From a virus: a stretch of DNA of 64,000 nucleotides. Below the pieces are notes generated by a model. That model made no database searches, had not been told where the DNA came from, and was given only the letters and a program-made list of their open reading frames with translations. Made by a program: the position numbers and the translations under genes. The stretch is from the IMG/VR virus record IMGVR_UViG_3300024259_000010, positions 124,001 to 188,000 of that record. One strand, written 5' to 3'. Below are positions 7,581-59,308 of the stretch, piece after piece (the first letter of the stretch is position 1; every line of letters starts with the position of its first letter).

Positions 7581-9683
7581 ATGAATGGAAAAATAAGCCC
7601 CTTAAAAACGTACAATAGTTTCGACATGGAGATGACTGCTGATTCTATTGGCCGATTGGCAAAGATACAATTGTTTACTAAACAAGTTGATCATGTACTA
7701 TCTGATTTTACTTCTGATATACCGTTTCTAACTGATGTTGACATTGTTGTCATATTAGGTGATAAAGAATTAAGTAGAGGTATTGATTATGTTATTTATG
7801 AAGAAGAAGAAAATGGTATATTTAAAACAAAGTTAAAACTTATTAATCACCAGTTGCTTATTGATACTGTGGATAATACTAAAGTCAAGATCTATATAAC
7901 ACGACGTAGTATTGATACTGCACTCGTATATAACGCCCTTGGTGATGATATTGTATCACAAGAGAATAGAGTAAATGCCCATAGAGATAATGATTACATA
8001 GCAAATGAAATTGATGGTATTACAAGGTATGTGACTTCTAATCATTTAACAGAGGTTGTAAATAATCCTAATGTTTCAGGTGTTTGGGAATTGGTTGTTA
8101 AGACGAGTTGTTCTTTTCAGTCGATCAGTGATCTGATAAAATTCCATCCTAATCCATACGCGATGATAGATGCAATTCAAGAAACCATTAATACATATGA
8201 TAAATTCAGTTCCGAATTAGGCGATGATACAATAGTAACTGAAGCCCCAAATAAGAAAATAATACTAGGGCTAGACTATATTAAAATTGTAAATCTATTA
8301 CTATCGGATGGTGGTATTGTAACAGAATTAGAAAGTATAATTAGTGCTGACTACTTAGGATTTACTAATTTCTTACTTAAGTATTCTATTACACTACAGG
8401 ATCATAAATTCTTGGATGCTAGGTTATATGATATATATATGAATCCTGATATTGATAATCCGATTAACCTCGGTGGATTGGATGGATTATTAGGCGATCT
8501 ACAATATCATATGTATCCTGGGTTTACTCATGTACATGCGATAGATACGAATGGTACTAGTGAAATTATAGGTAATGATGATGGTGATATTGTTAGCCCA
8601 CCCGCTGATGAGGAACTATGTGTAATGCCTGTAGTAAATACACCACCAGTGGCTAACGCACAAAATGTGACTACAGAGATGGATATAGATAAGGATATCG
8701 TATTGACAGGTAGTGATACAGATGTGACCGATGTATTAACATATACAGTAGATGATGAACCTACACATGGTAGTTTATCTGGTACTGAGCCTAATCTGAC
8801 GTACATACCTGATGGTGGTTATTATGGACCTGATTCTTTTACATTCATAATTAACGATGGGTATGTAGACTCACTTCCAGCGACTGTAGATATTACTGTC
8901 AATGAAGTGTTTGAAGATCCATTTGCTATTGAATATGGATTAAATAACTTTGCTGCGTCTATTGCTGCGGTAAACCAGGTAGATCAGACACTAAATATAA
9001 ACATGTCAGAAATGCCTTACATTCTTACAGGTATTACAATTGAGGATGGTTATGATGTAGAGATTGAATGTGAATGGGCTCATAATTATAATGGTAAAAC
9101 TAAGCGTACAATGTGTGCTGTTTCGAATGATCAAGTGGTAGATTGGCCGCCTACAATGCCAGATGCCCCTGAACCATATGGTGCATTAGATGTAATATAT
9201 GCTTTGGAAGAAAAGGGTGATACATATAGGTATACAAATGAGGGTAGATCTATCTGGCAGTATTCCGGATATGGTTACTTTAATGGTATGCAAACCGATG
9301 GGTTCTATCAGGAAGATGTGCGATATGTCATAGGTAAGAGTGGTACTACCATGTATAGAGGTAATGACACTACTGTAACAGGATGTACAGGTATTAGGAA
9401 TTCTAATAGAGGTATAACATTATTTGGTTCACAAATAAATGGTACTTATAGTCACCCAATACAAATGCACGGTTATGCATACAATTGTATTTTCTATTCA
9501 TTGAAGATATGGTCTAGTGATACAAGAAACGATCAAACTTTATTACATCATTTAATTGCAGTACCTTCCGGATGGACAGATGGTATTATAACAGCTACTG
9601 TTAACTGTGTTTATGATAAAGTAGATGGTGTATTCCACGAACCTGGATTCATGTCATTTGGTATTACTGAATCTATTACATAA
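7581..9683 (+). CDS. Structural protein with cadherin/Big_9-like domain (700 aa)
   Basis: The first 340 residues are unlike anything I know. Residues about 353-443 form a typical tandem-type Ig/cadherin-like domain: it opens with TPPVANAQNV, has GSDTDVTDVLTY, then PTHGSLSGT, and closes with YYGPDSFTFIINDG. Such domains occur in adhesins and in exposed phage tail proteins. The last 250 residues are beta-rich and Tyr/Gly-rich, like fibre tips. An AAGGAA site precedes the ATG and a strong hairpin follows the stop, so this gene ends the operon that starts at 2418. A role in surface attachment as part of tail or baseplate is likely but not proven. Confidence 0.65.
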   Translation: MNGKISPLKTYNSFDMEMTADSIGRLAKIQLFTKQVDHVLSDFTSDIPFLTDVDIVVILGDKELSRGIDYVIYEEEENGIFKTKLKLINHQLLIDTVDNTKVKIYITRRSIDTALVYNALGDDIVSQENRVNAHRDNDYIANEIDGITRYVTSNHLTEVVNNPNVSGVWELVVKTSCSFQSISDLIKFHPNPYAMIDAIQETINTYDKFSSELGDDTIVTEAPNKKIILGLDYIKIVNLLLSDGGIVTELESIISADYLGFTNFLLKYSITLQDHKFLDARLYDIYMNPDIDNPINLGGLDGLLGDLQYHMYPGFTHVHAIDTNGTSEIIGNDDGDIVSPPADEELCVMPVVNTPPVANAQNVTTEMDIDKDIVLTGSDTDVTDVLTYTVDDEPTHGSLSGTEPNLTYIPDGGYYGPDSFTFIINDGYVDSLPATVDITVNEVFEDPFAIEYGLNNFAASIAAVNQVDQTLNINMSEMPYILTGITIEDGYDVEIECEWAHNYNGKTKRTMCAVSNDQVVDWPPTMPDAPEPYGALDVIYALEEKGDTYRYTNEGRSIWQYSGYGYFNGMQTDGFYQEDVRYVIGKSGTTMYRGNDTTVTGCTGIRNSNRGITLFGSQINGTYSHPIQMHGYAYNCIFYSLKIWSSDTRNDQTLLHHLIAVPSGWTDGIITATVNCVYDKVDGVFHEPGFMSFGITESIT

Positions 9684-9692
9684 ATAAATAAT

Positions 9693-9725
9693 AACAAGCA
9701 TAGTGGATCATCCACTATGCTTGTT
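9693..9725 (+). terminator. Hairpin terminator after the tail operon
   Basis: Perfect 15-bp stem (9693-9707 with 9711-9725) and a 3-nt TCA loop, followed by AT-rich sequence rather than a long T run. The right arm merges into a TATATTAC octamer at 9725-9732. Confidence 0.7.
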
Positions 9726-9742
9726 ATATTACTTTATTCAAA

Positions 9743-9751
9743 CATTGTATG
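9743..9751 (+). promoter_or_regulatory. Late-type promoter motif CATTGTATG
   Basis: It lies 30 nt before the ATG at 9781, just downstream of the terminator hairpin. It would drive the 9781 gene and the GT90/sulfotransferase cassette. A TATATTAC octamer at 9725-9732 could add early transcription. Confidence 0.55.
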
Positions 9752-9780: not shown

Positions 9781-10461
9781 ATGGATAACAGTAAATATTT
9801 TGAGAAGAAGGGGAGATCGTATATCTTCAAAGGAGATCTCTTGGAAGTGTTTATACCTATGCGGTATGCACAACATGGTTATTTGGAAATAGGGAACAAT
9901 GTTTCTACTATTGGTATTTTTGACATGACTATTAATGGTACAATTGAAACAGGTTATCTATTAGGTGCTGTTATTGAAATGTATCCATCTGATATTGAGT
10001 CAGTAACTATTGACCAACAGAAGTATGCAAAACTTATTCTACATAAAGATGATGTATTTATTAAAGACTGTAATGTTGTTAAAGATGCTAAGATCTCATA
10101 TATTATCTTTTATGAAATGTTCCACTCAGGACACTACCCTAAGTTTTTGAAGTACTTCGATTGTATTGGTATCTTTGATAGAATTATGAAAGCTAATGGA
10201 GACTCGTTCTCAGCTGACCATATGATCTTTGAAATGATTGTATCTGTATTGTTTAGAGATACTAAGAATATGTCTACTCTATTTAGACATACTAATATGA
10301 AGGGTACTTACCAAACTATCCCTCTAAGAACTATCGCACATGTTGCACAATCTACTACAGGTAAGATCATGGGGTCTTATATGAATGAAGGGTTGGATGC
10401 AGCTATTGTCAATGCTGACGATGTTGTATCAAATGATATTGAAGATCTATTAAGGCAGTAA
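9781..10461 (+). CDS. Unknown, possible virion protein (226 aa)
   Basis: A soluble 226-aa protein with mixed alpha/beta composition; no motif or membrane segment that I can name. The start has an AGGAG site 9 nt upstream and a CATTGTATG promoter motif. It is followed after one base by the first GT90-like gene, so it is the first gene of the modification cassette. The promoter class fits a late virion protein. Whether it is functionally tied to the glycosyltransferases, for example as their acceptor, cannot be told from the sequence. Confidence 0.6.
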   Translation: MDNSKYFEKKGRSYIFKGDLLEVFIPMRYAQHGYLEIGNNVSTIGIFDMTINGTIETGYLLGAVIEMYPSDIESVTIDQQKYAKLILHKDDVFIKDCNVVKDAKISYIIFYEMFHSGHYPKFLKYFDCIGIFDRIMKANGDSFSADHMIFEMIVSVLFRDTKNMSTLFRHTNMKGTYQTIPLRTIAHVAQSTTGKIMGSYMNEGLDAAIVNADDVVSNDIEDLLRQ

Positions 10462-10462
10462 T

Positions 10463-11437
10463 ATGAGGTATATATATTCCATAGATGAACGTGTAGCTCA
10501 TTATTCAGGTAACCCATATAACCATATATTCCATCGAAGTGATTTACCAAAAATGTTTGATTACCATAAATGGGCAGTATGTATGGGAGATGATATTGAC
10601 AATAGTGATATTGAAGATACAACGGAAATGAGCGATTATCATAAAAATTTGGTTGGATGTTATCATAGAATATATAATACTATTAATTCTGTAAAAAAAG
10701 AATATCCACATTTAAAAGATAAAAAAGCATTGGCTCATGTTTCAGATAATACAGCCTCATGGGAGATACCTATAATATGTAAAACCAGACCTATCGATAA
10801 TATTGGTGGTAATACTATAGCTCCTATCCGGATGACAAGAAATTATGGACATGTATTAGAATTACCTAGGATAGATTGTAAAGTATCGGAAAAAATACCT
10901 GGTGTTATGTGGCGTGGACTACTACATCTTAAAAAAAATTATAGACTGAATAACAGATTGTCTTTAATTGAGAAGTTTTATAATCATCCAAATGATCTAA
11001 TAAATATAAAACATACAGGGATACCATGTAATGAGTTTGTAGCAAGTGAAGAAGTACTTGGATATAAATTTGGTGATTATTTGAGTGTGGGAGAGATGCT
11101 CAAATATAGATTCAATGTATCTATAGAGGGTTGGGATATGGCATCTAATCTCCAGTGGATTCTTGCTAGCAACTCTATTGCTATGGCCCCTAAGATGGTT
11201 ATAGAGAGTTGGTTCATGGAGAGTAAGTTAGAACCATGGGTCCACTACATACCTATTGAAGATGATTGTTCAGATTTAATAGAGGTATATGAATGGGCAT
11301 TAATGCACCCAAATGCATGTGATGTGATTAATAGAAATGCTAAGATGTTTATGAATGAATTTGTAGATAAAAAACGTGAAAGAGAAATATTCTTTAGAGT
11401 AGTTAAGAAGTATCTTGAGAATTGTAATTTTGTTTAA
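10463..11437 (+). CDS. GT90-like (CAP10/LpsA-type) glycosyltransferase, copy 1
   Basis: 324 aa, paralogous along its whole length to the next gene. Features of the GT90/CAP10 family: a WRG motif (VMWRGLLHL), a FNVSIEGWDMASNLQWILAS stretch that matches the family pattern of Gly/Asp then a chain of small residues, then SWFMESKLEPWVHYIPI, which is the family's conserved W-F-x-x-x-L-x-PWxHYxPv block, followed by a helix with NANAKMFMNEF-like packing. Enzymes of this family move sugars such as glucose or xylose from a nucleotide sugar onto polysaccharide or protein. It is in one operon with copy 2 and a sulfotransferase. The acceptor could be a virion protein or a host surface glycan. Confidence 0.7.
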   Translation: MRYIYSIDERVAHYSGNPYNHIFHRSDLPKMFDYHKWAVCMGDDIDNSDIEDTTEMSDYHKNLVGCYHRIYNTINSVKKEYPHLKDKKALAHVSDNTASWEIPIICKTRPIDNIGGNTIAPIRMTRNYGHVLELPRIDCKVSEKIPGVMWRGLLHLKKNYRLNNRLSLIEKFYNHPNDLINIKHTGIPCNEFVASEEVLGYKFGDYLSVGEMLKYRFNVSIEGWDMASNLQWILASNSIAMAPKMVIESWFMESKLEPWVHYIPIEDDCSDLIEVYEWALMHPNACDVINRNAKMFMNEFVDKKREREIFFRVVKKYLENCNFV

Positions 11438-11446
11438 GGGAGTAAT

Positions 11447-12385
11447 ATGAATTATAAATATACGATTGATGAGAGGGTAAATTTCTATTTAGGTAATATG
11501 GATAAAAGATGTTACGATTACATGAAGGATATTACACCACGTGTACGTAATTATATATATACTGTATTGATAGGAAATAATATTGACAACACTGAAGTAT
11601 TAACTGGTGGTAAGGGTGCATTAGTTAATTCATTTAAATATATAGAAGGCACTCTTAATAAATTAATCAACGATGGTGTATGTCCTATAGATAAAACAAT
11701 ATTGGTATATTTAGCGGATCAAAATAGATTACGAACATTCCCAATGATTGCTAAAACACGTTTGATTGATGATAATGGTAATATTACCATAGCACCTATT
11801 GGTAGAGCTAGACACTATGGTCCCGTAGCAGACCTGCCTAATATTGATTGTAAAGTTAGTGATAAATGTAATAAAATTGTCTGGAGAGGACATTGTCAAC
11901 CTATGAATAATATTATTCATATTAGACAAGAAGTGGTTTCTAAATTTGCCGAACATAAAAACTCTAATATAGATATTGGATATTCTTCGGGTGTAGCAAC
12001 TGGATCTACATTATTAAAGAATAAGATGACATTACGTGAATTGTTGAGATATAGATTTAATATATCATTGGAAGGAAATGATGTTGCTACCAACCTTAAG
12101 TGGATTCTTGCTAGTAATTCAATAGCCGTAGCTCCTAGGATGACAACCGAGGGTTGGTTTATGGAAAGTAAGTTAGAACCTTGGGTACACTATATACCTT
12201 TAGATGACGACTGTATGGATATAGAGGACAAGTTAAATTGGGGGATATCTAATCCTGATAAATGTATTGATATTAATAAAAATGCTAATAAGTTTATGTT
12301 AGAGTTCGTGGACATAGAACGTGAGAATGAAATATTCTACAGAGTCCTGAAATCATATATTGAAAACATACATATAAATATTTAA
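11447..12385 (+). CDS. GT90-like (CAP10/LpsA-type) glycosyltransferase, copy 2
   Basis: 312 aa; an AAGGGAG site precedes the ATG. It has the same landmarks as copy 1: TIDERVNFYLGN at the N-terminus (copy 1 has SIDERVAHYSGN), VWRGHCQP, FNISLEGNDVATNLKWILAS, and the diagnostic WFMESKLEPWVHYIPLD block near the C-terminus. The divergence between the copies is high in the first half and low in the second, as expected if donor-site residues are kept and acceptor specificity differs. The two probably arose by tandem duplication; a third, broken copy lies downstream of the sulfotransferase at 13158. Confidence 0.7.
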   Translation: MNYKYTIDERVNFYLGNMDKRCYDYMKDITPRVRNYIYTVLIGNNIDNTEVLTGGKGALVNSFKYIEGTLNKLINDGVCPIDKTILVYLADQNRLRTFPMIAKTRLIDDNGNITIAPIGRARHYGPVADLPNIDCKVSDKCNKIVWRGHCQPMNNIIHIRQEVVSKFAEHKNSNIDIGYSSGVATGSTLLKNKMTLRELLRYRFNISLEGNDVATNLKWILASNSIAVAPRMTTEGWFMESKLEPWVHYIPLDDDCMDIEDKLNWGISNPDKCIDINKNANKFMLEFVDIERENEIFYRVLKSYIENIHINI

Positions 12386-12398
12386 AAGAAAGTAATCT

Positions 12399-13145
12399 AT
12401 GTTAGATTTTATAATAACCGGCCCATCTAGATCAGGTACAACAGGGTTAACCTACCTATTAAATTCTAGCTCTGAAGTACTATGTGGTCATGAAACTCAC
12501 GTGTTGGATTATTGGGACAAAGATATATCAGATCGTATAAGAAATAATATATTAGAGAAAATGTTTTATTCTGACCGTACACCAAGCATACTTGATTTTA
12601 CACCGAAAGGTGTAACCCCAGATATGTTAAAGACAATAGTTGAGACAAGTTCTACTGGTAAAGAATTATTTGATAGATTAAACAGTATTGCAAAATGTAA
12701 TTGTGTTGGTGATAAAGTACCTGGATATATTGTAACCCTTCCACAAATTCTTAAAAATAACCCACAACTTAAATTACTGATATGTATTCGTGATGGTCGA
12801 TCTATACTGGCATCACATTTACGTGGTTTAGAACCCGGATGGGCTACAGACAATATAAAAGATGCAGAAGAGCGAATAGTTATCTTTATGAATATCATTA
12901 ATAATATTGAGAATCATGATAAAGTTATATATGTTCCATATGAACACTATACACAACATACTGATTTTTTGATTAGAAGACTTGAGTCGTTTCTTGATAC
13001 CAAACTATCTAACTGTAATACTGATAAATATCGTGACTATACAGATTGGGATGACGTGTTCAAACAGCTACCGAAAGATTATATGGATAAAGTATCTCCA
13101 GAATTTATAGAATATCAAAAGAAATTTGGATATTCTTTAGTGTAA
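12399..13145 (+). CDS. Sulfotransferase (PAPS-dependent)
   Basis: 248 aa. The N-terminus IITGPSRSGTTGLTYLLN has the PAPS 5'-phosphosulfate loop of sulfotransferases (P-x-R-S-G-T-T/S), and residues about 127-138, CIRDGRSILASH, match the 3'-phosphate-binding segment (R-D-x-R-x-x-x-x-S). The C-terminal basic region that usually completes the PAPS site is only partly recognisable. The enzyme would transfer a sulfuryl group from host PAPS to a hydroxyl, most plausibly on the sugar placed by the neighbouring GT90 enzymes. Sulfotransferases are uncommon in phages. It lacks a strong ribosome site (AAGAAAG) and is probably translated with the upstream gene. Confidence 0.72.
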   Translation: MLDFIITGPSRSGTTGLTYLLNSSSEVLCGHETHVLDYWDKDISDRIRNNILEKMFYSDRTPSILDFTPKGVTPDMLKTIVETSSTGKELFDRLNSIAKCNCVGDKVPGYIVTLPQILKNNPQLKLLICIRDGRSILASHLRGLEPGWATDNIKDAEERIVIFMNIINNIENHDKVIYVPYEHYTQHTDFLIRRLESFLDTKLSNCNTDKYRDYTDWDDVFKQLPKDYMDKVSPEFIEYQKKFGYSLV

Positions 13146-13157
13146 ATAGAGGATGAT

Positions 13158-13277
13158 ATAATTTATAGATATTCATTAGAAGAACGTATTAATTTTTATT
13201 TAGGTAATATTGTGAAATGTAAAAATGTAACTATTATAAGTGATAACGATGAACATTATTTTAAGCTAAATATTTAA
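13158..13277 (+). pseudogene. Remnant of a third GT90-like gene
   Basis: The frame directly after the sulfotransferase stop encodes YRYSLEERINFYLGN, clearly like the N-termini of the two GT90 copies (YTIDERVNFYLGN). Only about 24 residues of unrelated sequence follow before FKLNI and a stop, resembling the INI end of copy 2. The only nearby ATG (13153) is in another frame and meets a stop after one codon. This looks like a frameshift at the start plus deletion of nearly the whole gene. Confidence 0.65.
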
Positions 13278-13297: not shown

Positions 13298-13308
13298 ATC
13301 ATTGTATG
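13298..13308 (+). promoter_or_regulatory. Late-type promoter motif ATCATTGTATG
   Basis: It ends 35 nt before the prohead protease ATG and is identical to the sheath promoter motif. It separates the head gene cluster from the decayed end of the modification cassette. Confidence 0.62.
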
Positions 13309-13342: not shown

Positions 13343-14188
13343 ATGAAAAATAAAAGTCTAGCATTCTCTGTTCAGACCATGCAAACTGTTCTCGGTAATG
13401 GACTAAAGTCTATTAAGCCAGACAAAGATGGTGTTTATAAAGGTGTACCATTAGCTGTAATTGGCAAACCATCTAGAAACAATGTTGTATACGATCAGAA
13501 TAGCTTTGTTGAATCTATCACTAATCCTAATACACGATTCTATAAGAGTTTAGTAGAAGGTGGTCTTGAAGGCGAGTGGGGTCATCCCATGAACATTGGT
13601 TTAAATAATAAAGATGCTATCATGCGTACCATGCAGATCGATGGTTCGAGAGTATCACATTACTTCACTAAAGTATATGCTAAGAAAACCAAAGATGGTG
13701 AGTACTACGTTGTATATGGTGACATTGTTCCTTTCGGACCTAATGGTCAGTACTTAGCTGCATCATTCCAAGACACTAAAAGAAATACTGCATTCTCTTT
13801 ACGCTCACTGACAACTGATCCTGAATCAATTGGTGGTGGTTTATGCCGTAAGAAGATCCTTGCATTAATTACTTTCGATGCTGTTAATACCCCTGGGTAT
13901 CAAGAAGCATGTAAATGCTTTATGGATACTGGCGAAGAATCATTTAAGTATGAACTTACTGAAGAGCAGATCGTATCTGCTGGTCTAGAAGACTTTGCTA
14001 CAGTTGAATGTGCTGAAGTTATTGGACAAGAAACTGTATCACATCAGTCTTTATTAGATTTACTAGAAACTGATAGCGTCACGCTTGCTACAAAAGAAAT
14101 CTCTGTTGTTGGAAACTTTGATAAGAAAACTGGTAGTATCCGTACTGGCACTTCTAATATCTCTGCGTTCCATGGTCTGTTCCGTTAA
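13343..14188 (+). CDS. Prohead maturation protease, S80/gp21-like serine protease
   Basis: 281 aa. A GEWGHP motif puts a histidine at 81, an AFSLRS motif puts a serine at 152, and TFDAVNTPG puts an aspartate at 179. Order and spacing match the His-Ser-Asp arrangement of T4 gp21-type prohead core proteases and the jumbo-phage S80 family. The enzyme would cleave scaffold and head proteins inside the prohead. Residues 227-230 are IGQE, the same type of site seen in the capsid candidate (VGQE), so the 51-residue tail may be removed by autocleavage. An AAAGGAA site and a late promoter precede it; the ClpP-like gene follows after 20 nt. Confidence 0.8.
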   Translation: MKNKSLAFSVQTMQTVLGNGLKSIKPDKDGVYKGVPLAVIGKPSRNNVVYDQNSFVESITNPNTRFYKSLVEGGLEGEWGHPMNIGLNNKDAIMRTMQIDGSRVSHYFTKVYAKKTKDGEYYVVYGDIVPFGPNGQYLAASFQDTKRNTAFSLRSLTTDPESIGGGLCRKKILALITFDAVNTPGYQEACKCFMDTGEESFKYELTEEQIVSAGLEDFATVECAEVIGQETVSHQSLLDLLETDSVTLATKEISVVGNFDKKTGSIRTGTSNISAFHGLFR

Positions 14189-52381: not shown

Positions 52382-55300
52382 ATGAGGAAGTATTTAAATA
52401 AAGCCTTACTGACATCTATTATGTTTATTAGCATGATGAGCAGTAATGGTTATGGGCAAACACCATATACAGATGGTATGCCTATTACAGATATTGCAAA
52501 TAAACAACCTATGAGTATTATATCTGGTAAGATTAATTATGGTTGGGATCAACTATATAACTTATCTCAAGGACAAGGAGCATCCGGTCTAAGAATCGAT
52601 GCATTGGAAGCTCAAACAAATTACTGGAACTCGGTGTCTAATAATGTGACACAGAATTATGAAGCTGCTGATACATTATTAGATAATTCTAAACTTAATA
52701 TCACTAATGGTGTATTTGTTACATCACTGAGTTCTACTGATGGTAGTGAGGTAGTTAGTTTATCCCCAAGTGAGGTATCTGTATTTAACGGAACTAGTGG
52801 AAGTAAACTAACAGACTTAGATATATCTATTACTGATGGTAGTGATAGAGCATCATTGACTCCAGGTACTCTCGCTTTAGATAATTTATTTATATTACAA
52901 ACAACTTCTAGTAAATTAGAAGTAAGTAAAAATGATCCAAACTATACCACACAGATTAATGGTGATGTGCAGATTAGTAAAGGTGATGCTTCTCTAGATT
53001 CATTAACAATGGGATATTGGACTATCAATAATTGGTATGACATTATAGGACCAATACCGCTGCAATATACTATTGAAAGAGGTATATGGGCAGGTCAAGT
53101 ATTATATTGGACAGCTACTACTCAGGGGAGACCAACCTATAATAATAATGATGTAACATTATACTGGGATGGGGAAAAGTGGAGACTGACCGACAATGGA
53201 GCGATTTATTATGTATGTACTTCCAACACACAACATCCACCATGGGACCATGAATGGAATGCAGTACCATCAGGTTTAACATATAATCCTACAACAAGTC
53301 CTTTACTCACACGGCAATTAAACTCTAAACAGGAGATGATGAATGTTGTAGACAGTAAAGTAGATATGTTAAATGGTACTGCTACTAATCTAACTGTCGA
53401 TACATTATTAACAGCAGACGATGTTATTATAACTGAAAGTGCTCTTATTGACGGTGTAGATATAAAAGATTATGCAGTGTATATTGAAGATGATCCTGAG
53501 AACTGGGCGAAGTTAACAAGTGAAAAACTACGAATAGATTCAGTTATTGAAGAATGGGAACTTCCAACTGAAACCAATCGGATGGATCTGACATCAAGTG
53601 GTATTGGGATAGATGATTATACGAATGATAAACATGCTTCTTTTAACCCAAGTGCGGTAACCTTTGGTACGACTACTGATTCCGCTACTTTATCAGCATC
53701 CCACCTAGCATTGGGACACAATGATACTTCTGTAGAATCAGATGGTACTGATGTAATGATAGGTAATACATACATAGATACTATAATCAAAGCTAATAGT
53801 TTGGTTGATATACAAGCAAGTGTTGATATCATGGATGATCTTACTGTAGACGACCGATCATACTTCTATGGTACTGTAAATTTCAAAGATACTGTATGGT
53901 TAACCGATGGTGATAATGGTGGTCAAGTATGGATGCAAGATACTAGAGTTACTCTGGTCGATGTTGCATTTACTACATCCGATGGATTATGTACGTTCGT
54001 TGTTCCTGATCATGGGTTAAATAATAACAATAATACAGATGTAGCTATATTAGCTAGTAATCAAAATGATCTACCAATTGGTGTTCAATACGTTATTGAT
54101 GTCTTGGATAACAATACGTTTACAGTTCCTGCTGGTGCTGGTGCTGATGGATTAGGTGGTACTGCTGATATAAATGAAGATGGTAAAACAGCATATGTAT
54201 ATAATTCATGGACTGACAGACATAGTTTTAACAGCCCTGTAACATTCGACGTAAATCATCAGGTGACTATGGAAGGACCTGTTGTTATTGCTGAAGCAAC
54301 ACTCGATGATCTCTATGTAAAAGGTAGTACTTATCTCAATTCCGATAGAGGTACTGGTAATGTAATATTACGAGGCCAAAGTGTTGTGTTAGATAATCAA
54401 GCATTTACTTCTGGAATGGGTGATGATATCCTAGTTGCAAAAACAGACCATGGATTAATTAGTGGTGACAATGTCAATGTTACATTGTCAAGTAATACTG
54501 GAGATCTACCAAATGGTGCATATGGTGTGTATGTACTCAATGACAATATGTTTATGGTAGACTCTGGTGGTGTTATCAATGGTGAAGGTGGTACAGCAAC
54601 TTTCACTGAACAAGATTCAACTCCATATCAATATGTTAATGCCTATGATAAACATTACTTTTATAGTGAAGTGGATTTTTCAGAACCAGTTACTATTAGT
54701 GAAGTGGATTTTTCAGAACCAGTTACTATTAGTGAAGGGACACTTGGCAATATTACATTAAGTGATGATATAGATGCTGCTGAATATAATATTGAAAATG
54801 TTGATGATATGGATGTCACTACGGTTTCAGTAGATGGCTATACTGTTGCAGATATCGATTCATTTGATTTACTATTAGGTAATTCTTCTTTGGGGACTAA
54901 GATTGATTCAAATAGCTCTGGTATTGAAATGGATCATAATGTTAAAATGAATTTCCAACTTAATGTGGCAGGTAAATCAACATTTAATTATCTCAATGGA
55001 TATAATGATTTCAAAATTAGAAACTATACTTCGGATGAAGTAGATGCACCATTCACATCTGTTGTAGGTAATACAGTAACATTTAATTATTATCACGGTT
55101 TGCAGAATGGTGATCAAATTCGTATTCAGAATTCATCTGCTGAAAATGAACTACCAAATGGATACTACAACATATCTCGAATAGATAGTAGTACCTTTAC
55201 CGTTGATGCTGGCCAGCCTGGTACTGGAGCAGCTGGTACTGCAGATGTAGCAGAAGAAAGTAAAGATGTACTTTTCTACGATGTAGGTGATGATGAATTC

Positions 55301-55951
55301 ACATTCAATAGTCCCGTATCATTTGGATATGGTCATCAGGTAACTATAGATGGACCTATTGATATAAATGACGGTCTTACATTAGGTGGTGATATAGATG
55401 CTGCTGTATATGATATTAATAATGTTGGTGAGTTACAAGCTACATCTTTAGAAGCTTCAGATTCCACTGGTTATTTACTTACGTCTGTAGTTGGAGGCGA
55501 GGGTGATATACGTTGGGTACCAGGAACAGTAGGAGGTCTTGCAACAATTGACTTCCGTATTGAACCTAATAACAATGATGATGGTAATTATAGATTCGGC
55601 TTGTCTTCTGGTAGCACAGGGGCTAATTCCATTGAGATATTCTCACCAAATAGTGCAATTAAAAATACTAGATTATCTTGTGGTAATATCACATATATTA
55701 ATGGTAATACAGACTTAAATAGAGCAGCTCAAACTGTTGTCATAGGAGCCACTTCTGGTACTGACAATACTGATACTCTATTGGAAGTAAAGTCAACACC
55801 TGATTTACCGGGTTGTTTCTTATTACCACGAATGAGCACAGCTGATCGCGATACATATATAAGTTCACCAACTGCAGGACATATGATATTTAATACAACA
55901 ACCACAAAAGCTGAAGTGTACGATGGTTCTACATGGCAAGCTTGTTGGTAA
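52382..55951 (+). CDS. Very large fibre-like protein with a Sec signal peptide (1189 aa)
   Basis: 1189 aa. The first 27 residues look like a Sec signal: RKYLNK, hydrophobic ALLTSIMFISMMSS, and a possible cut near SNGYGQ. The rest is beta-rich and fibre-like. Three modules of about 100 residues repeat, each with a DHGL or YHGL opening, LPNG or LPIG, FTV or FMV, and a TAD or TATF strand (near residues 535-615, 670-760, and 890-985). An exact 33-bp tandem duplication (54668-54733) repeats EVDFSEPVTIS. The C-terminus (LPRMSTADRDTYISSPT) is seen in other fibre tips. AAGGAAAGGG precedes the ATG. Export would be odd for a virion fibre. Confidence 0.6.
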   Translation: MRKYLNKALLTSIMFISMMSSNGYGQTPYTDGMPITDIANKQPMSIISGKINYGWDQLYNLSQGQGASGLRIDALEAQTNYWNSVSNNVTQNYEAADTLLDNSKLNITNGVFVTSLSSTDGSEVVSLSPSEVSVFNGTSGSKLTDLDISITDGSDRASLTPGTLALDNLFILQTTSSKLEVSKNDPNYTTQINGDVQISKGDASLDSLTMGYWTINNWYDIIGPIPLQYTIERGIWAGQVLYWTATTQGRPTYNNNDVTLYWDGEKWRLTDNGAIYYVCTSNTQHPPWDHEWNAVPSGLTYNPTTSPLLTRQLNSKQEMMNVVDSKVDMLNGTATNLTVDTLLTADDVIITESALIDGVDIKDYAVYIEDDPENWAKLTSEKLRIDSVIEEWELPTETNRMDLTSSGIGIDDYTNDKHASFNPSAVTFGTTTDSATLSASHLALGHNDTSVESDGTDVMIGNTYIDTIIKANSLVDIQASVDIMDDLTVDDRSYFYGTVNFKDTVWLTDGDNGGQVWMQDTRVTLVDVAFTTSDGLCTFVVPDHGLNNNNNTDVAILASNQNDLPIGVQYVIDVLDNNTFTVPAGAGADGLGGTADINEDGKTAYVYNSWTDRHSFNSPVTFDVNHQVTMEGPVVIAEATLDDLYVKGSTYLNSDRGTGNVILRGQSVVLDNQAFTSGMGDDILVAKTDHGLISGDNVNVTLSSNTGDLPNGAYGVYVLNDNMFMVDSGGVINGEGGTATFTEQDSTPYQYVNAYDKHYFYSEVDFSEPVTISEVDFSEPVTISEGTLGNITLSDDIDAAEYNIENVDDMDVTTVSVDGYTVADIDSFDLLLGNSSLGTKIDSNSSGIEMDHNVKMNFQLNVAGKSTFNYLNGYNDFKIRNYTSDEVDAPFTSVVGNTVTFNYYHGLQNGDQIRIQNSSAENELPNGYYNISRIDSSTFTVDAGQPGTGAAGTADVAEESKDVLFYDVGDDEFTFNSPVSFGYGHQVTIDGPIDINDGLTLGGDIDAAVYDINNVGELQATSLEASDSTGYLLTSVVGGEGDIRWVPGTVGGLATIDFRIEPNNNDDGNYRFGLSSGSTGANSIEIFSPNSAIKNTRLSCGNITYINGNTDLNRAAQTVVIGATSGTDNTDTLLEVKSTPDLPGCFLLPRMSTADRDTYISSPTAGHMIFNTTTTKAEVYDGSTWQACW
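54668..54733 (+). repeat. Exact 33-bp tandem duplication
   Basis: Two identical 33-nt copies (54668-54700, 54701-54733) in frame in the 1189-aa gene; repeats EVDFSEPVTIS. Perfect identity indicates a recent duplication or slippage. Confidence 0.9.
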
Positions 55952-57012: not shown

Positions 57013-57061
57013 AGGTAGTTATGGTATGAGTTGGAAAATAGATTGAAGGGAAATGGAATAT

Positions 57062-59308
57062 ATGAATACTCTTAATATTGAAAATAAAATTATCAAACGT
57101 GATGGATCTGTTGTGGAATACGATGGTTCTAAAATCACAAAAGCTGTTTTAAAAGCAATCGAAAATGTTTCACAGGAGAATGTAGAAACTAATTACAAAT
57201 TAGCTGAAGAGATCTCAGCTGCAGTAGAGAATGTTATTAAATGGAAGTTTGTTTCCATTGATGATAATATTGAAAATATCAACATTGAAGAAATTCAGAA
57301 TATTGTAGAACAACAGATGATGTCTATGGGACACTTTGATATTGGACGTTCGTTCATTGTACATCGTGAAGAACAGAAGCAAAAGCGTAATACACGACTA
57401 CGCCCCGACATTACAGCTATTGAGGACTATGTATTTACTAGTAAGTATGCGCGTTATATCCCAGAGCTTAATCGTCGTGAAACATTTGAAGAAACATGTA
57501 CTCGTGTAAAAGATATGTTCATCAAACAATATCCTAATATTGAAGATGATATTGAATGGGCATTTGAACGTGTGCTTGATAAACAATGCCTACCTTCTAT
57601 GCGTGCTATGCAATTTGGTGGTGTTCCAGTAGAACGTCATAATGCAAGATTGTACAACTGTAGTTTCTCATTATGTGATAGAGTTGATTTCTTTAAAGAA
57701 TCTATGTACTTATTACTATGTGGAGTTGGTGTTGGATTTAGTGTTGAGTTTGAACATGTTGAAAAGATTCCTAAGCTTGCACAGTCACTTGATAAACATG
57801 ATGTTAAACATCATATCATTGCTGATAGTATTGAAGGTTGGGCTGATGCAATTAGTGAACTTGTCGACAGTTATATCAAAGGAACATATGTTGAATTCTC
57901 ATATGCTGAGATTCGTCCATTCGGAGCTGCTATCTCATCTGGTGGAAGAGCACCCGGTCATGTTGCATTAAAGAACTCTATTGAAAAATGTCGATTAGTT
58001 CTTGATGGTGCATTAGGTCGTCAGTTGAAACCTATTGAATGTTATGACATGATTATGCATAGTGCCGATGCTGTACTAGCTGGTGGTGTGAGACGTAGTG
58101 CTTGTATTTGTTTGTTCTCCCAAGATGATGGTGAGATGATCAATGCTAAACGTGATAATTGGTTTGAAACTAATCCACAACGTGCTCGTTCTAATAACTC
58201 TGTTAAGCTCATCCGTAAAGATGTAACTAAAGCACAGTTCATGCGTGTGTTCCAGAAGCAGAAAGAATGGGGTGAACCTGGATTCTTCTTTGCTAACGAT
58301 CTTAATCATGGAACTAACCCTTGTTGTGAAATTGGACTCGATCCTACATTGGAAACAGAAGATGGATTAGTTACTGGTTGGCAGTTCTGTAACCTGACTG
58401 AGATCAATGGTAGTAAGTTAGTTAACGTAGATGCTTTTAGAGAAGCAGTTACAGCAGCTACTATTATTGGAACATGTCAAGCAGGATTTACAAGCTTCCC
58501 ATATCTAGGAAGTGTTACTGAAGATATTTGTAAACGTGATGCTCTATTGGGTGTATCTATTACAGGTATGATGGAACATCCTGATGTAGCATTAGATCCT
58601 GATACTCAGAAGATGATGGCTTTGTATGCAGTTGGTGTAAATGATAAGATGTCTAAGAAGATTAATATCAATCAAGCTAAACGTATTACTTGTGTTAAAC
58701 CAGCTGGGACTACATCATTAGTATTAGGAACAGCTTCTGGTATTCATCCTCGACATGCTCGTAGATACTTCAGACGTGTTCAAGCAAGTATTGCAGATCC
58801 TGTCTACAAACACTTCAAAGCAGCTAATCCACATATGTGTGAAGCATCTGTTTATAGTGCTAATCAAACTGATGATGTTATTTCATTCTGTATTGAATCT
58901 AGCCCTGATGCGATCCTACGTAAAGATGTTTCTGCTCTTGATCTACTTGGTCATGTTTTGAACACTCAGAACAACTGGGTTAAGTATGGTAATACTGTCG
59001 ATATGGATGGTCTAAATCATAACGTTTCCAACACCGTTACAGTAGCTGAAGGCGATTGGGATAAAGTATCGGAATTCATCTGGAACAACCGTAGCGACTT
59101 TACAGGTGTTACAACACTAGCTGACTTTGGTGACAAGATGTACCAACAAGCTCCACATGAAGAAGTCACTACAAATGGTGATGAGAAAACATGGGGCGAT
59201 ACTATCTCTAAATTCAATAAAGTGGACTACACTGAATTGAAAGAACAAGAGGATGTCACAACATTAAATAAAGAAATTGCATGTGCCGGTGGTAAGTGTG
59301 ATATCTAA
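57062..59308 (+). CDS. nrdJ: Class II (B12-dependent) ribonucleoside-triphosphate reductase, monomeric NrdJ type
   Basis: 748 aa. Residues 1-95 form an ATP-cone-like regulatory domain (IIKRDGSVVEYDGSKI). The catalytic barrel has NCSFSL (C200), LLLCGVGVGFS, NPCCEI (N419, C421, E423) and QFCNLTEIN (C443), matching the RTPR residues N406, C408, E410 and the redox Cys pair. The C-terminus CAGGKCDI (C741, C746) matches the CX4C thioredoxin-linked shuttle. The enzyme makes deoxynucleotides with adenosylcobalamin, needing no iron or oxygen. ATG 57062 fits GAAGGGAA better than the earlier ATG at 57053. Confidence 0.88.
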   Translation: MNTLNIENKIIKRDGSVVEYDGSKITKAVLKAIENVSQENVETNYKLAEEISAAVENVIKWKFVSIDDNIENINIEEIQNIVEQQMMSMGHFDIGRSFIVHREEQKQKRNTRLRPDITAIEDYVFTSKYARYIPELNRRETFEETCTRVKDMFIKQYPNIEDDIEWAFERVLDKQCLPSMRAMQFGGVPVERHNARLYNCSFSLCDRVDFFKESMYLLLCGVGVGFSVEFEHVEKIPKLAQSLDKHDVKHHIIADSIEGWADAISELVDSYIKGTYVEFSYAEIRPFGAAISSGGRAPGHVALKNSIEKCRLVLDGALGRQLKPIECYDMIMHSADAVLAGGVRRSACICLFSQDDGEMINAKRDNWFETNPQRARSNNSVKLIRKDVTKAQFMRVFQKQKEWGEPGFFFANDLNHGTNPCCEIGLDPTLETEDGLVTGWQFCNLTEINGSKLVNVDAFREAVTAATIIGTCQAGFTSFPYLGSVTEDICKRDALLGVSITGMMEHPDVALDPDTQKMMALYAVGVNDKMSKKININQAKRITCVKPAGTTSLVLGTASGIHPRHARRYFRRVQASIADPVYKHFKAANPHMCEASVYSANQTDDVISFCIESSPDAILRKDVSALDLLGHVLNTQNNWVKYGNTVDMDGLNHNVSNTVTVAEGDWDKVSEFIWNNRSDFTGVTTLADFGDKMYQQAPHEEVTTNGDEKTWGDTISKFNKVDYTELKEQEDVTTLNKEIACAGGKCDI

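Follow-up and report, generated by a model that had tools for sequence, protein, structure and literature searches.

Two GT90 glycosyltransferase genes and a sulfotransferase gene inserted among the head genes of a phiKZ-like jumbo phage, with a possible role in virion modification

Introduction

Why should a phage carry two glycosyltransferase genes, a sulfotransferase gene and the remains of a further glycosyltransferase gene between two conserved genes of its head block, and what would their products modify? These genes lie in a window of 64,000 nt (positions 124001-188000 of the 235,833-bp virus record IMGVR_UViG_3300024259_000010), to which all coordinates below refer unless otherwise stated. 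The terminase is closest to those of the phiKZ-group jumbo phages (about 32% identity) and, judged from such sequence comparison, the source of the window is a phiKZ-like jumbo phage; no close cultured relative of it was found. An initial annotation, made from the letters of the window, had read the genes as a late-expressed cassette that places a sulfated glycan on a part of the virion, possibly the product of the gene at 9781, or on the host envelope.

A putative late operon among the head genes

A strong terminator-like hairpin of 17 pairs (9691-9727) parts the gene at 7581 from the cassette operon, whose first gene encodes a conserved head virion structural protein (9781-10461; phrog_2926, PHROG match 2.5e-47) and has the candidate late-promoter motif TTGTATG (9745-9751) 36 nt upstream. 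Behind this head gene and on the same strand, with gaps of 1, 9 and 13 nt, follow the genes for GT90a, a CAP10-type glycosyltransferase of 324 aa (10463-11437) that begins 1 nt past the stop of the head gene, for GT90b, a second CAP10-type enzyme of 312 aa (11447-12385), and for a PAPS-type sulfotransferase (Sulfotransfer_3) of 248 aa (12399-13145). The remnant of a third GT90 gene (13158-13277) comes next, and the downstream flank is formed by the S80 head maturation protease gene (13343-14188), which probably has its own promoter since a further TTGTATG motif (13302-13308) lies 41 nt upstream of it. All of these features are on the plus strand. A link to a glycosyltransferase-like ORF at genome positions 100198-100992 was considered and not supported.

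Across the whole phage genome, TTGTATG stands upstream in 5 of 93 intergenic regions against 0.9 expected, and several of its occurrences precede genes that the phage has in common with a sister contig; we take it to be a putative late motif of the phiKZ type. A scan for sigma-70 promoters gave no excess. The terminator and the TTGTATG motif upstream of 9781, together with the intergenic gaps of 1-13 nt, bear out the late-operon setting described by the initial annotation, and from these features we infer that the cassette is expressed late. A second motif, ATATTAC, which occurs in 22 of the 93 upstream regions (2.7 expected), resembles the early-promoter motif of phiKZ.

The GC and GC3 contents of the cassette resemble those of the other genes of the phage, so contamination or an assembly artefact is unlikely, and both GT90 genes have good ribosome-binding sites. 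Shine-Dalgarno sequences of at least 5 nt are found at 54% of the phage genes compared with 10% in shuffles, and such strong usage argues against a host of the Bacteroidota type. The N-terminus encoded at 57053-59308 looks to us like that of an anaerobic ribonucleotide reductase, presumably a hint that the host grows without oxygen.

Comparison with related phages shows how the cassette came to lie where it does. In the sister contig (L003, record G001) the phrog_2926 gene, whose product is 49% identical to the 9781 product, directly adjoins the S80 gene within extended synteny, and the two genes are likewise adjacent, with no cassette between them, in phages FLC6 and MIZ-Pa99. These empty junctions identify the cassette as an insertion and the direct junction as ancestral. 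Phages PhiEaH1 and KpLz-2_45 carry a phrog_5043 gene of unknown function at the same place (L119 3063-3803 and L120 2221-2946, respectively), and the phrog_2926/S80 junction is, on the evidence of these genomes, a variable site inside a conserved head block.

Two GT90 enzymes and the remnant of a third

Both glycosyltransferase genes score above the Pfam cut-off of 24 bits for Glyco_transf_90 (PF05686; GT90a 59.2 bits, GT90b 67 bits), which confirms the family to which they had been assigned. The two proteins are 44% identical and keep the residues that are invariant across 34 aligned GT90s. One of these, R160 of GT90b (an Arg also in GT90a), aligns with the diphosphate-contacting Arg218 of POGLUT1, and another, D91, lies outside the region of GT90b aligned to POGLUT1; the catalytic base of POGLUT1 is Asp133. 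The structure model of GT90b (pLDDT 81, with low confidence for residues 1-25) has a GT-B fold, and in the PDB its top four matches comprise POGLUT2, two entries of POGLUT1, and Rumi. With these enzymes GT90a and GT90b have the CAP10 domain and the arginine in common, and GT90b also the modelled fold; they differ in lacking ER signals and, in a hand alignment, in having at the position of POGLUT1 Arg279 an Asn, which bacterial GT90s have too. In GT90a a W replaces the N of the EGND turn, the counterpart of the POGLUT1 donor-sugar loop in the alignment, so that its donor may differ. No hydrophobic stretch was found in GT90a, GT90b or the sulfotransferase (maximum KD19 below 1).

Relatives of these enzymes are scarce among phages. 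PHROG profiles gave no convincing match for GT90a or GT90b, no true relative was found among 50,697 phage records, and direct search of IMG/VR found no direct relative of GT90b or of the sulfotransferase. The single apparent match among those records, MT836857 (L004), was rejected as a phage GT90, as it resembles a fragment of a bacterial glycan cluster, carrying fucosyl-, GT2-, GT4- and GT8-like genes, and groups inside the Bacteroidota. A degenerate DNA pattern recovered one more phage GT90 (L097), encoded by the 185-kb viral record G002, and structure comparison also brought up GT90 proteins of giant viruses and one protein of an uncultured tailed phage, so the family is no newcomer among viruses. 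The three phage GT90s split from the 79 other proteins in a tree of 82 (support 99/99), with GT90a and GT90b as sisters (100/98); the depth of the phage clade is unsure because of its long branches.

The bacterial GT90s sampled come mostly from Bacteroidota and Pseudomonadota and several adjoin GT2, GT4, GT8, GT9, GT11 or lipid A acyltransferase genes, which suggests that the ancestral role of the family was probably surface glycan synthesis. Those in LPS and glycan clusters are about 27-34% identical to GT90b and have the core EGNDVASNLKW...WFME in common with it, whereas the phage enzymes form their own clade and lack a basic N-terminal segment. In a comparison anchored on one short motif, ERVNYY, this segment precedes the motif in 66 bacterial GT90s with a median length of 55 residues (minimum 39) and a median net charge of +7, compared with 7 residues in GT90a, 7 in GT90b and 3 in the L097 enzyme. 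The starts of GT90a and GT90b are not mis-called, since an N-terminal extension would not fit behind upstream genes that end 1 and 9 nt before them. The basic, aromatic N-terminus of the bacterial enzymes would plausibly be a membrane anchor for work on lipid-linked glycans, and its absence from all three phage GT90s fits soluble, not membrane, acceptors.

The remnant at 13158-13277 has ATA where an ATG is expected, leaving a frame without a start codon, of which only about 18 residues align to the N-terminus of GT90b. At the protein level this alignment scores 72, whereas the highest of 2000 shuffles reached 51, and GT90b is the best match of the remnant among the phage ORFs, with GT90a second (46); at the DNA level the score against GT90b is 49 (shuffle mean 21, maximum 33). 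The resemblance between the 3' ends of the remnant and of GT90b is within chance. A third GT90 copy therefore existed and then decayed, as the initial annotation had held, and the identity and sister position of the two intact copies sustain its wider claim of duplication and decay in this region. As far as alignment and tree can tell, the GT90a/GT90b pair is best explained by a duplication inside the phage lineage.

The sulfotransferase of the cassette

The product of 12399-13145 scores 51 bits against PF13469 (cut-off 27) and 23.2 bits against PF00685 (cut-off 22) and carries the key residues of a PAPS sulfotransferase, in agreement with its first assignment. These comprise the 5'-PSB loop GPSRSGTT with the invariant R11, the E32 of CGHET, which aligns with CGEET of TPST1 and is a candidate catalytic base, and the 3'-PB motif RDGRSILAS with the invariant R131 and S139. 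Three positions essential in RaxST and other sulfotransferases are matched by R11, E32 and S139 (PMC6637879). Among solved sequences TPST1 and TPST2 come closest, at an overall identity of about 20-25%, and tyrosylprotein sulfotransferases also rank nearest in Foldseek, which lends weak support only as the model is poor (pLDDT 52). In TPST1/2 and RaxST the PSB arginine, the position of the catalytic Glu and the PB serine are arranged as in the cassette enzyme; these proteins differ in their low identity to it and in their demonstrated peptide substrates. Sulfotransfer_3 also includes NodH, a glycan sulfotransferase (PMC11625862), so the sequence does not single out one acceptor. The sulfated glycan proposed at the outset is thus one of two options, the closest solved relatives being enzymes that sulfate tyrosine.

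Matches to the sulfotransferase were few in bacteria, with three weak ones in 274 genomes from the class to which a gammaproteobacterial reference belongs, none in 198 from that of a Bacteroidota reference and none in 15 GT90-bearing genomes; phmmer, at low sensitivity, found no sulfotransferase near bacterial GT90s. Earlier annotations list virus-encoded PAPS sulfotransferases among AMGs or morons (phrog_3347; PMC8290583, PMC10829341), and like these the cassette enzyme is a predicted viral PAPS enzyme; unlike them it has no match to phrog_3347 and shares an operon with two GT90s. Given these earlier reports, the novelty lies in the combination and setting of the genes and not in the enzyme class. 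The impression that phage sulfation is rare was not borne out, as all three jumbo phages that we examined carry a sulfotransferase-like gene and viral metagenomes report them as well.

Sulfotransferase-like genes beside fibre-like genes

The three jumbo-phage records hold four sulfotransferase-like genes, all of them beside virion or fibre-like genes, the fibre calls of several neighbours having been made by eye and with weak profile matches. A second such gene of the same phage (genome 17169-18035, in the minus-strand locus L007 17169-19010, genome coordinates) lies 6 nt after an LRR/fibre-like gene. Its product scores 19 bits against PF03567, below the cut-off of 22, with both PAPS motifs visible (PKSGSE, RNPVDRFLSA), and has a C-terminal phrog_6034 domain; in P26059A, phiM5 and phiM9 the homologues of this domain come immediately after tail-fibre genes. 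The gene at 122 kb in G001 lies inside a run of repeated 161-170-aa proteins within a fibre-like cluster, and that at 167 kb in G002 faces a fibre-like, repeat-rich gene of 1628 aa and overlaps a glycosyltransferase-like ORF (L113 297-2025; G002 165997-167725) that is GT9-like by eye and has no Pfam hit. G002 is thus a jumbo phage with a GT90 as well as a sulfotransferase-like gene. This context points to modification of the virion or its fibres, and with four cases in a genome setting rich in virion genes it is no more than suggestive.

Several fibre-like proteins start with a secretion-signal-like sequence ending in AQ or GQT, which is odd for virion parts (52382-55951; L007 19058-19354 and L009 7943-8746, both on the minus strand). 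The phage also encodes an HldE/RfaE domain II-like nucleotidyltransferase (L008 8182-8580, genome 28182-28580; TIGR02199 130 bits, cut-off 181.5) and, to judge from this resemblance, may make an activated heptose-like sugar.

What the cassette may modify

Our preferred reading, to which we assign a probability of roughly 0.48, is that the cassette is an accessory, late-expressed virion-modification module between conserved head genes (we infer when it is expressed, its donor and acceptor, the order of its steps and its benefit). Such a module would have been inserted between the two head genes, and its GT90 gene then multiplied by duplication to give two intact copies and one decayed. Head and cassette genes would be co-transcribed late. 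GT90a and GT90b, as soluble cytoplasmic GT-B enzymes, would use a nucleotide sugar, probably a UDP-sugar, to glycosylate hydroxyls of freshly synthesised, surface-exposed virion proteins, or would extend the sugar already placed there, and the sulfotransferase would move sulfate from host PAPS to the GT90-made glycan or to tyrosines. A virion target, which the initial annotation had preferred, is favoured by the loss of the basic N-terminal segment and by the fibre-adjacent sulfotransferase genes and is retained here as a proposal, the probable ancestral role of the family in surface glycan synthesis counting against it; the suggestion in that annotation of the 9781 product is not supported, since that protein is conserved in phages without the cassette and is therefore an unlikely target. 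Surface-exposed fibre-like proteins are likelier targets, for example the product of 7581-9683, a lineage-specific Big_9 protein of 700 aa that was not detected in the sister contig. We know of no sulfotransferase reported in the virion glycosylation of mycobacteriophages, whose system belongs to phages of Actinobacteria (actinobacteriophages). The glycans on their capsid and tail-tube subunits (Freeman 2023, as cited in PMC12619734) make those virion proteins the kind of target that we propose here.

The foremost alternative, a serious one that we regard as less likely, is that the cassette remodels the host envelope, placing GT90 sugars and sulfate on LPS, capsule or lipid-linked precursors and so blocking superinfection or re-adsorption to debris. 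The bacterial GT90s, mostly of Bacteroidota and Pseudomonadota and several in glycosyltransferase or lipid A clusters, would suit this role, as would the place of NodH in Sulfotransfer_3 (PMC11625862). However, the basic segment at the N-terminus of the bacterial enzymes is missing from the phage GT90s, the cassette shares one operon with a head gene, and genes expressed late would have little time left in which to exclude superinfecting phages.

Distinctly less probable is a pair of separate modifications, in which the GT90s O-glycosylate virion proteins and the sulfotransferase, like RaxST in Xanthomonas, forms sulfotyrosine on a protein of the virion or of the host. In its favour, the solved sequences and folds closest to the cassette enzyme are tyrosylprotein sulfotransferases, CGHET lines up with CGEET in TPST1, and R11, E32 and S139 match the RaxST essentials (PMC6637879). 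Set against this are the low identity and poor fold model given above, the many acceptors found among Sulfotransfer_3 members, and a shared glycan that is equally plausible given the co-operonic GT90s.

To our knowledge GT90 is not a DNA-modifying family, and the thymidylate synthase of the phage keeps FNIASY, the motif expected of a true thymidylate synthase and not of a dCMP hydroxymethylase. A connection between base modification and the glycosyltransferase and sulfotransferase genes of phages has been drawn (Iyer 2013, as cited in PMC10829341), yet decoration of modified phage bases by these transferases is highly improbable here, with no Tet/JBP match in the genome (nor in the controls) and a cassette that sits in a head operon and not among nucleotide genes. 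We give as little credence to a decaying passenger, recently acquired, functionless and being lost like the third GT90 copy: one copy is already a remnant and the cassette is absent from the sister contig and other phiKZ-like phages, but the three long frames are intact, the GT90s keep the residues invariant in 34 GT90s, the composition is phage-like and the ribosome-binding sites of both GT90 genes are good.

Implications

Beyond this phage, it is conceivable, if doubtful, that swappable glycosyltransferase/sulfotransferase modules lie next to the head and fibre genes of jumbo phages from several lineages and that these phages make sulfated virions, bearing sulfoglycans or sulfotyrosine, with GT90s re-targeted from bacterial surface glycans through loss of the basic segment. 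The pairing of sulfotransferase and fibre-like genes would offer a simple rule for finding further cases. If true, sulfated virions would represent a class of virion surface chemistry that no phage has so far been shown to have. Sulfate groups would bring strong negative charge to the virion or to a receptor-binding protein, and the added charge could alter adsorption, recognition and diffusion in sulfated mucus or algal polysaccharide.
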